Both the position numbers and the translations under genes were made by a program. The notes beneath the pieces are model-generated. The model did not search any database, had not been told where the DNA came from, and saw only the letters and a list, made by a program, of their open reading frames with translations. Shown here in pieces: positions 142-4,532 of a stretch of 7,250 nucleotides of DNA (its first letter is position 1; every line of letters starts with the position of its first letter). The DNA lies in contig DMNR01000357.1 of the NCBI GenBank assembly GCA_003452655.1, positions 1 to 7,250 of the forward strand. The letters run 5' to 3'. The DNA is from Actinomycetota bacterium. Lineage in GTDB: Bacteria > Actinomycetota > Actinomycetes > S36-B12 > UBA10799.

Positions 142-315
142 ATGAACGTAGACATAACCACAATTACCAATCTTGTCGTATCGGCACCGACGACGCATGC
201 CTCGTATTGGCACGCCGCTGGAACCAAACCGACCGCAACCAAGCGAGCCCGAGTTTTTGGTTACCCGTCCGGTTTCCGACCGCACCTTGATCATCGATCG
301 TGGGTCATTGTCTGA
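142..315 (+). CDS. Upstream ORF (57 aa leader peptide) of whiB7
   Basis: This short ORF has ATG at 142 and TGA at 313-315, giving 57 residues from MNVDITTITNLVV to SWVIV. It follows a perfect Shine-Dalgarno and lies about 115 bases upstream of whiB7. The peptide resembles no family I know and has no obvious signal or membrane segment. Its 3' third overlaps the antiterminator 5' arm (codons 47-50), and its stop codon lies inside the 300-320 hairpin, directly before a terminator. This arrangement fits uORF-controlled attenuation as described for whiB7/wblC in mycobacteria and Streptomyces. Drug-stalled ribosomes on the uORF would prevent terminator formation. Coding status is inferred from the ribosome binding site and architecture, not from homology. 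Confidence 0.68.
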   Translation: MNVDITTITNLVVSAPTTHASYWHAAGTKPTATKRARVFGYPSGFRPHLDHRSWVIV

Positions 316-341
316 CCCACTCGGCACTATCAAGGCCGCGG
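280..341 (+). promoter_or_regulatory. Antiterminator structure of the whiB7 leader
   Basis: Bases 280-283 (CCGC) and 285-291 (CCTTGAT) can pair with 338-341 (GCGG) and 329-335 (ATCAAGG). This makes 11 base pairs with only a small 1x2 internal loop. The downstream strand shares 332-341 with the 5' arm of the intrinsic terminator, so the two folds are mutually exclusive. The stem encloses the 300-320 hairpin. A ribosome near the uORF end would hide 280-291 and allow the terminator; an early stall would leave this arm free and allow readthrough. Pairing was read by hand and no energies were computed. Confidence 0.62.
300..320 (+). promoter_or_regulatory. Leader hairpin enclosing the uORF stop codon
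   Basis: GTGGGTCA (300-307) and TGACCCAC (313-320) form a perfect 8-bp stem with a 5-base loop. The uORF TGA (313-315) is the start of the 3' arm, so a ribosome finishing the uORF must melt the stem. GGGTC (302-306) could also pair with GACCC (341-345) inside the terminator stem, a second alternative pairing. There is no T-run after it, so it is not itself a terminator. It sits within the loop of the antiterminator. Confidence 0.6.
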
Positions 342-369
342 ACCCGGAATGGGGACCGCGGCCTTTTCT
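332..369 (+). terminator. Intrinsic terminator (attenuator) upstream of whiB7
   Basis: AAGGCCGCGG (332-341) pairs perfectly with CCGCGGCCTT (356-365), and TTTTCT follows at 364-369. Inside the loop, CCC (343-345) can pair with GGG (352-354), lengthening the stem. It lies after the uORF stop and 61 bases before the whiB7 ATG, so it would stop transcription before the gene. This is the expected place for a conditional terminator in the whiB7 leader. Its 5' arm is contested by the antiterminator. Confidence 0.8.
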
Positions 370-2370: not shown

Positions 2371-3246
2371 ATGGATGTGCGCAACAAGGAGGTTCGTCCG
2401 GCCTGGGCGATTGGGGTCGAATTGCGTCAGACGGCGGTGGACTGCGTGCAGGTGGTCGGAGACGTGGAGTGCCCGCTCGCGCTGCGCGGACTACCAGGCG
2501 TGGCGCTTGACTGGCTGCGCCAACTTGATGGTGCGCGGTCCTGGGGCGCGCAGGTGGCTGAGGCTCAAGCCCGTGGCATGCAGGGTGCTGACGCCTCGAT
2601 GTTGCTCGACCGCCTGCTTGATGCCGAGTTGTTGATCGATGCGAGGGTTGAGATCGCAGCGTTCCAATTCGCGAATCCCGTTGTCGTAGGAGCCGCGGGT
2701 CTCAGCGAACAGATCGCTGGGTTACTTCCGGGGTCGATACCCCTCGGGCCGCTTCCCAAGCCGCGCGACGGCGACGACTGGCGCCTGCGAACCGAGGAGC
2801 TTGGAGACAAGATTGGTTCTGCTGCGACCATCGTCGCGCTCGACTCACCCTGGGTTGATGCGGCGGAACTCGAGTTGGTGAGTCGGCTCATTGACGCCCG
2901 AATTGACCACGTTGTGGTCGGAGCGGGCGTATCAAGCGCGCGTGTTGGTCCGGTCACCCGGGCCGGTGGGGGGCCGTGTGTGCGCTGCGACGAGTTGCTG
3001 CGAGTCGAGCTGGATCCGCTCTGGCGGCCATTGTCGGCCCAACTGGCGTTGGACATGCCAACCCCAGCGGCCCCGACCCTGACCGTTCTCGCGGCGGCAG
3101 AGGTGGTTCGCCAAATAACAAACGCGGCCCCTCACGAGGAGGTGGCCGCGTTGAATGCGGTCTTGACGACCGGCTACCGGGGCGGCGCCTGGCGACGCCG
3201 TCCCCTTTCGCGCCACCTCAAGTGTTCGTGTTGGTGGCCGAAGTAG
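2371..3246 (+). CDS. ThiF/E1-like (TOMM cyclodehydratase-like) zinc-binding protein
   Basis: This is a 291-aa protein resembling the actinobacterial ThiF-family proteins found next to ABC1 kinases. Residues 1-95 look like the leading winged-helix-like region of these proteins. VVVGAAGLSEQIAGLL (104-119) sits where the E1 nucleotide loop should be but is degenerate. VALDSPWVDAAEL (155-167) and HVVVGAG (180-186) follow the Rossmann strand pattern. CVRC (203-206) and the C-terminal CSC (285-287) supply the four zinc-ligand cysteines of the fold. The Arg/Lys/Asp set for adenylation is not evident, so it is probably a binding or scaffold protein rather than an active adenylase. No YcaO, ThiS or precursor peptide gene is nearby. 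ATG 2371 is preceded by AAGGGGG (2356-2362). The frame stays open upstream to 2071, but that stretch overlaps the divergent kinase. Confidence 0.7.
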   Translation: MDVRNKEVRPAWAIGVELRQTAVDCVQVVGDVECPLALRGLPGVALDWLRQLDGARSWGAQVAEAQARGMQGADASMLLDRLLDAELLIDARVEIAAFQFANPVVVGAAGLSEQIAGLLPGSIPLGPLPKPRDGDDWRLRTEELGDKIGSAATIVALDSPWVDAAELELVSRLIDARIDHVVVGAGVSSARVGPVTRAGGGPCVRCDELLRVELDPLWRPLSAQLALDMPTPAAPTLTVLAAAEVVRQITNAAPHEEVAALNAVLTTGYRGGAWRRRPLSRHLKCSCWWPK

Positions 3247-4452: not shown

Positions 4453-4532
4453 ATGAGACGAAGCCCCCGCTTCCTTGTCACTGCTCGCCTTCCCCTTGCG
4501 ATTAGTGACTTAGAAGCGGGGGCTTCGTTCAT
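4453..4532. terminator. Large composite hairpin downstream of the crotonase gene
   Basis: ACGAAGCCCCCGCTTC (4458-4473) pairs perfectly with GAAGCGGGGGCTTCGT (4513-4528). Above a 3x3 internal loop, GTCACT (4477-4482) pairs with AGTGAC (4504-4509), and TCGC (4485-4488) with GCGA (4498-4501). ATGA (4453-4456) can add pairs at the base. The lower stem looks like an actinobacterial terminator, serving convergent genes on both strands. The tall structured top is unusual for a simple terminator, and a small structured RNA is an alternative. Confidence 0.6.

Follow-up and report, generated by a model that had tools for sequence, protein, structure and literature searches.

The whiB7 gene and its genome

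The window analysed here, the whole 7,250-nucleotide stretch of contig DMNR01000357.1 (assembly GCA_003452655.1), comes from the genome of an actinobacterium close to the order Nanopelagicales, an incomplete draft assembly of 3.2 Mb in 466 contigs (70.7% complete). In the available text of PMC10202952, the members of this order are called freshwater bacteria. On its forward strand, positions 431–835 encode a WhiB Fe-S regulator of 134 amino acids with the AT-hook GRPRKD, whose gene is preceded by the Shine-Dalgarno sequence GGGGAG (421–426). The product matches the Pfam family Whib, as expected from the sequence-only reading, which had reported a WhiB gene with an AT-hook and named it whiB7, while an NCBIfam search with the same product gave no match. 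Its top solved relatives are the WhiB7 chains 7kif, 7kim and 7kuf (1e-25), with 7kug at 4.2e-19, whereas seven other WhiB sequences among the PDB matches listed reach 6.6e-6 at best. Nine of the 18 loci of the order were aligned, and none of them departs from the four cysteines (C20, C43, C46 and C52), the motif GVWGGE or the AT-hook. These cysteines, the GVWGG turn and the AT-hook at the C-terminus are marks of WhiB7/WblC proteins, and the protein's similarity to WhiB7 exceeds that to the other WhiB proteins. As the WhiB7 chains match far better and these residues are invariant, the gene is identified by sequence as a whiB7 ortholog, in agreement with the earlier assignment. Its best named relative is carried by a metagenome-assembled genome of the same genus that is labelled Candidatus Nanopelagicales bacterium (JAOAUD010000098.1; protein 96% identical). 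The genome of the window contains three more WhiB matches, which are weakly similar.

In actinobacteria, intrinsic antibiotic resistance is under the control of whiB7 leaders, descriptions of which come mainly from mycobacteria and Streptomyces. The comparison below covers 85 whiB7 leaders, comprising 18 loci of the order (from 17 genomes) and 67 from the class (20 loci and 47 stretches), where the 47 stretches were taken from the better-scoring matches listed, for spread over families, and L034 and L035 were excluded as lying on the same contigs as L005 and L006.

Putative promoter

A putative promoter occupies positions 39–78 of the forward strand. It comprises the WhiB7/WblC box GAAAAC (39–44), which fits GAAAWY and stands 3 nt (GAG) ahead of the −35 element TTGGAC (48–53), a spacer of 19 nt, and the −10 element TAGTCT (73–78), which fits TANNNT. 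In the portion of PMC7157823 available, the WblC promoter is given as GAAAWY, 3 nt, −35 TKGMNN, a spacer of 16–19 nt and TANNNT; GAAAAC, TAGTCT and the 19-nt spacer fit it exactly, while TTGGAC differs from TKGMNN at the fourth base. The distance of 7–8 nt given in the same portion places the predicted RNA start at about 85–87. A consensus promoter scan of positions 1–2000 found nothing.

The strict box GAAAWY-N3-TTG-N19–22-TANNNT (GAAAWYNNNTTGN{19,22}TANNNT) has a single site in the genome of the window, which is the whiB7 promoter, against no control hits; among its relatives in the genus, G003 has one site, at whiB7, G001 has one elsewhere (control 1) and G002 has none. A mismatch-free site of the stretch RAWAASNNGTTGGAC lies upstream of whiB7 in all four genus genomes, with one extra site in G003. 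As the published box precedes whiB7 in genus genomes, autoregulation of this promoter by WhiB7 is predicted from sequence. With one mismatch allowed, hits and control hits are similar in the genome of the window (G000; 17 and 14), G001 (16 and 11), G002 (7 and 14) and G003 (15 and 11), and no regulon is therefore claimed.

Predicted terminator

An intrinsic terminator hairpin is predicted at 332–365 of the forward strand, where the arms AAGGCCGCGG (332–341) and CCGCGGCCTT (356–365) form a perfect 10-bp stem around a 14-nt loop with the inner pairing CCC/GGG. The fold has a stability of −27.4 kcal/mol (z −5.1), which was equalled by none of 200 shuffles. The stem, itself ending in TT (364–365), is followed by the T-rich tail TTCTATT (366–372), which together with these two T reads TTTTCTATT, a T-run interrupted after four T. 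The hairpin was missed by a consensus terminator scan of positions 1–2000, which found none, because the scan admits loops of 3–8 nt only and the 14-nt loop exceeds this limit.

By the rule of at least 6 perfect pairs and a T-rich tail, a terminator is present in 82 of the 85 leaders, the exceptions being L019, L047 and L050, compared with 125 of 850 shuffles (15%). A stem of at least 8 pairs with at least 6 G/C occurs in 78/85 leaders and 7/850 shuffles, and the terminator arm contains GGCC[GA]CGG in 73 of the 82. Two genomes, G023 (L019 and L037) and G377 (L047 and L067), each carry two whiB7-like genes, one with a terminator and one without by the rule, as though one of the copies were no longer under the switch. 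An Rfam search up to E 1 gave two matches, both to miRNA families, below the gathering score and outside the leader, for which there is no match to a curated family at gathering score.

The region after the terminator bears on another possible mode of control, acting wholly or partly on translation through a hidden whiB7 Shine-Dalgarno sequence, or through Rho-dependent polarity, in place of the intrinsic terminator. The Shine-Dalgarno sequence at 421–426 is predicted to pair with 394–401 at a probability of 0.98–1.00, and RNA past 372 could be open to Rho. This pairing lies after the terminator, however, and sequence before 342 takes almost no part in it (mean 0.01); being apart from the arms at the uORF, it would not be switched by a ribosome on the uORF. 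As the intrinsic terminator is also present in nearly all leaders, control of this kind in its stead is considered very improbable, while the predicted pairing within 394–426 may be a possible second layer of control.

Upstream open reading frame

The uORF of the window extends over 57 codons from the ATG at 142 to the stop codon TGA at 313–315 on the forward strand, and is led by the Shine-Dalgarno sequence AAGGAGG (128–134), of which AGGAGG is also found in L005, L006 and L007. The sequence-only reading had described both this uORF with its perfect Shine-Dalgarno sequence, at the correct coordinates, and the terminator with a 10-bp stem and T-run, all of which were recovered here, the T-run with the interruption noted above. 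A uORF of at least 15 codons, led by a Shine-Dalgarno core of 4 nt or more and stopping 14–32 nt before the terminator, is present in 78 of 82 leaders and in 72 of 2460 dinucleotide shuffles (2.9%); L008, one of the four leaders missed, is truncated at a contig end. Raising the core to at least 5 nt leaves 73/82 leaders against 9/2460 shuffles, and a stricter rule for spacing leaves 53/82 against 18/4100 mononucleotide shuffles. The 78 uORFs range from 39 to 146 codons, yet all stop within −32 to −14 of the terminator, so that the position of the stop is fixed and that of the start is not.

The encoded peptide contains 8 threonine and 6 alanine residues among 57, and the uORF shows no run of a single codon type. 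Compared with L005, dN/dS is 0.72 for the uORF, 0.72 and 0.76 for the other frames (codons 1–45) and 0.03 for whiB7; by part, it is 0.52 for codons 1–18 and 1.66 for codons 19–45, while the last 12 codons, which hold RNA arms, have one synonymous change and no other. Pairs with L006 give 0.74–0.85 (without frame controls). Four uORF pairs of family f7 give 0.47–1.85 for the whole uORF and 0.60–2.02 without the last 14 codons, with controls of 0.54–1.05; three of these pairs share sequences, and they range over 1.25–1.85, above their control frames (0.54–1.00). In the pair L011–L012, dN/dS is 0.47 for the whole uORF; with the last 14 codons removed it is 0.60, the controls being 1.05 and 0.55. 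Purifying selection on the peptide beyond that in other frames was thus not clearly found in these few pairs and small samples.

These values bear on whether the leader senses a single drug or amino acid, through a specific arrest peptide encoded by the uORF or through control codons in it for that one amino acid. Such sensing would accord with the response of whiB7/wblC leaders to amino acid starvation as well (PMC11550727, in the text available), with the threonine and alanine content, and with the lower dN/dS in codons 1–18 and in L011–L012 as a whole; however, the whole uORF evolves like the other frames against L005 and codons 19–45 exceed them, the three related f7 pairs lie over their controls, L011–L012 falls between its two controls once the last 14 codons are removed, and no run of a single codon type is present. 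The tail RSWVIV, conserved in L001, L005 and L006, doubles as an RNA arm. A peptide- or codon-specific sensor is accordingly judged improbable, and since purifying selection on the uORF codons beyond that in other frames is not clearly apparent, the quantity sensed is likely to be the position or progress of the ribosome instead of the peptide.

Predicted antiterminator

A second structure, predicted at 280–341 of the forward strand, contains three nested elements. In the outer stem, the 5′ arm (280–291), made up of CCGC (280–283) and CCTTGAT (285–291), pairs with 338–341 and 329–335, respectively, in the 3′ arm (329–341; ATCAAGG and GCGG), which overlaps the 5′ arm of the terminator (332–341). 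The middle stem (294–324), found in the fold of 278–341, joins TCGA (294–297) to TCGG (321–324), and the inner hairpin (300–320; GTGGGTCA-TTGTC-TGACCCAC) pairs 300–307 with 313–320 (−13.6 kcal/mol, z −4.8), its 3′ arm starting with the uORF stop codon. The RNA of 278–341 has a stability of −30.4 kcal/mol (z −5.7; none of 200 shuffles as stable). The 5′ arm of the terminator forms part of the 3′ arm of this antiterminator, and the two structures are therefore predicted to be mutually exclusive. The antiterminator and the promoter box at 39–78 are the parts absent from the sequence-only reading, and the antiterminator is the decisive one.

Co-variation of the arms was assessed by comparing the pairing of each leader's own upstream region with the 8 nt at the foot of the terminator against that obtained with upstream regions permuted among leaders. 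The score over all leaders is 1248 against 1020.6 (sd 22.6; 0 of 2000 permutations as high), and for 17 leaders of the order it is 281 against 240.8 (sd 10.1; 0/2000). A wider upstream region gives 1251 against 1044.8 (sd 22.3; 0/5000), a difference of 9 sd, and the distal arm 1101 against 1055.4 (sd 11.1; 0/5000); in these permutation tests kinship is handled solely through a set of 69 nonredundant leaders, where the wider-region and distal tests give z of 8.4 and 4.0. Arm pairs that change together include CCTTGAT/ATCAAGG in the window, CCTCGA/TCGAGG in L008 and TCTCGAGG/CCTCGAGG in family f7. In L007, which belongs to the genus of the window, the terminator's GCGG is replaced by ACGG and the matching CCGC by CCGT, an independent paired change. 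TCCGT occurs upstream of 11/14 terminators of the ACGG type and 8/61 of the GCGG type (Fisher 3.9e-6, ignoring descent), seven leaders being of neither type. In L006, L007, L010 and L018, the leader's own arms are not better than foreign ones in the 8-nt test.

Single-leader measures are less uniform. In six of the 17 leaders of the order (L007, L010, L011, L017, L018 and L037), the fold has a z of −2 or higher; of 82 leaders, 51 have a fold that is matched by at most 5/100 shuffles, and 23 have a pairing probability so matched. The probability that the terminator arm pairs upstream is 0.77 over the 82 leaders against 0.64 in shuffles, and that of the window is reached by 8/100 shuffles. As the shuffles also score high, pairing probability is a weak measure in the GC-rich terminator arm, and so is enclosure of the stop codon, which is found in the antiterminator of 74/78 predicted folds (95%) and, with shuffled upstream DNA, in 1060/1560 (68%), a moderate excess. 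RNAalifold, run on 33 of the 82 leaders aligned with MAFFT, returned 4 pairs only and did not recover the outer stem, which is attributed to misaligned arms, as some terminators carry an additional G that appears to have displaced them. A covariance model (R1) built from a MAFFT alignment, likewise with 4 pairs and no outer stem, was rejected and replaced by the test of own against foreign arms.

Co-variation also bears on the possibility that the terminator is a plain insulator ending uvrD transcripts and the uORF either a frame open by chance or a small, unrelated gene. Intergenic terminators are common, and uvrD lies upstream in relatives; however, an insulator needs neither a promoter box ahead of the uORF, nor a uORF stop held at a set distance from the terminator, nor co-varying antiterminator arms, all of which are found here, and this explanation is scarcely credible.

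Proposed attenuation model

Because of the stable and exclusive folds, the conserved terminator and uORF stop, the co-variation of the arms and the promoter box, the leader (about 85–430) is best read as a ribosome-controlled transcription attenuator with the uORF stop inside a predicted antiterminator hairpin, to which a probability of roughly 0.85 is given on the strength of sequence comparison and folding models. This extends the sequence-only reading of a uORF-controlled whiB7 attenuator, for which the sequence parts, antiterminator included, are present. A lack of conservation in relatives had been named there as grounds for abandoning the idea; terminator, uORF and co-varying arms were instead found across the leaders.

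In full-length folds at equilibrium, the terminator wins in 79 of 82 leaders, so that readthrough would need the antiterminator to fold first, during transcription. When a ribosome is modelled on the stop codon, with the pairs beneath it forbidden, the terminator is retained in 78/78 leaders and the antiterminator region loses 19.2 kcal/mol on average. The order of folding, translation of the uORF, termination and the inducing signal are inferred with the help of these models as follows. WhiB7 likely activates the promoter at 39–78, to judge from its box. A freely translating ribosome would reach the stop codon at 313–315, cover the inner hairpin and undo the antiterminator, whereby the arm 332–341 would be free, the terminator would form and transcription would end near 366–372. 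If, through a drug or starvation, ribosomes move slowly, are missing or stop earlier in the uORF, the antiterminator at 280–341 would form first, being made before the 3′ arm of the terminator, and the polymerase would read through into whiB7.

With the co-variation of the arms, two kinds of feature can be told apart: selection seems to maintain the position of the stop and the exclusive arms, but seemingly not the uORF peptide. Across the class, the whiB7 leader may thus be a peptide-blind meter of ribosome arrival at the stop codon, in which a uORF of any length or sequence would serve, selection would keep the stop within a hairpin that the antiterminator encloses, whiB7 would be turned on by any defect in initiation, elongation or release, and the leaders would make up an RNA family beyond the Rfam copy searched; this generalization is put forward at about even odds. 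Sensing independent of the peptide would explain how one leader answers many unrelated ribosome drugs.

Comparison with known leaders

According to the part of PMC4128351 (Dinan 2014) available, whiB7 of two mycobacteria has a uORF, a Shine-Dalgarno sequence and a terminator-like stem-loop, and its RNA drops after the uORF. A terminator/antiterminator model for whiB7/wblC is given in the accessible text of PMC11550727 and PMC9618640, which cite Lee, Lee and Roe 2022, and whiB7 is termed a well-characterized example in that of PMC13236596. As far as these texts go, the present leader resembles the attenuators of mycobacteria and Streptomyces in its uORF led by a Shine-Dalgarno sequence, the intrinsic terminator after it and the excluding antiterminator, as well as in an RNA start about 350 nt ahead of whiB7 and an autoregulated promoter box, both of which are predictions here; it differs in belonging to another order. 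It can be assigned to the whiB7/wblC attenuators by its uORF, predicted terminator, predicted co-varying antiterminator and promoter box with a one-base departure in the −35 element, and it shares its layout with the other leaders examined, while departing from them in the sequence of its antiterminator arms and uORF peptide. Given the published descriptions, the mechanism is already known; what is added here is a new lineage and a fuller anatomy than was first described. No earlier report of such a whiB7 leader in this order was found in the literature searched, which consisted partly of titles and the beginnings of abstracts.

Two other kinds of leader are comparable, as described in the excerpts available. 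The ilvB1 leader of M. tuberculosis (PMC13236596) likewise has a uORF, a terminator and an antiterminator that is masked by a ribosome at the stop codon, but it carries control codons for branched-chain amino acids, of which no such run is seen here. The leaders of the ARE-ABCF genes are5sc and tiaA (PMC12421871) also join a uORF to a terminator switch, there sensing drugs, but their uORFs are very short, stalling occurs at the start codon, and a resistance ATPase is controlled instead of a WhiB regulator.

Distribution and neighbouring genes

Matches to whiB7 at 1e-15 or better occur in 17 of 166 genomes of the order (13/80 among the near-complete ones) and in 312 of 393 genomes of the class (an even draw with completeness of 90% or more), whiB7 being thus common across the class and patchy within the order. 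The gene is present in 6 of the 11 genomes of the family; of the five without it (G005, G006, G007, G009 and G010), only G009 is more than 90% complete. The order uvrD–whiB7–abc1 is seen in four loci of the family (L139, L140, L141 and L142), while no uvrD is seen in L145, and L138 and L143 end at a contig edge. In three family genomes without whiB7 (L144, L146 and L147), the uvrD match adjoins abc1, the match in L146 and L147 ending short of the C-terminal part of the query; by sequence comparison, the whiB7 unit is missing there along with its leader. A search of G005 matched neither whiB7 nor abc1. Since these close relatives lack the whole unit, one can ask what the cell loses without it.

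In the window, abc1 lies on the reverse strand (913–2370), convergent with whiB7, and encodes an ABC1-type ATPase related to the macrolide-binding MABP-1/Rv3197 of mycobacteria, for which inducible macrolide resistance has been reported in a paper available in part. Its product scores 462.5 bits against NF050082, below the cut-off of 800, and matches PDB 7cy2 at 1.2e-123. A very stable hairpin after whiB7 (840–895; −42.8 kcal/mol and z −9.7 for 836–900) is probably the shared end of the convergent whiB7 and abc1 transcripts. The open reading frame at 2371–3246 of the forward strand has no Pfam match, and its similarity to a TOMM leader-peptide-binding domain is weak (20.9 bits against a cut-off of 36.9). 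A long GC-rich hairpin after an enoyl-CoA hydratase gene (4456–4530), which has a sub-threshold miRNA match in Rfam, is probably a terminator.
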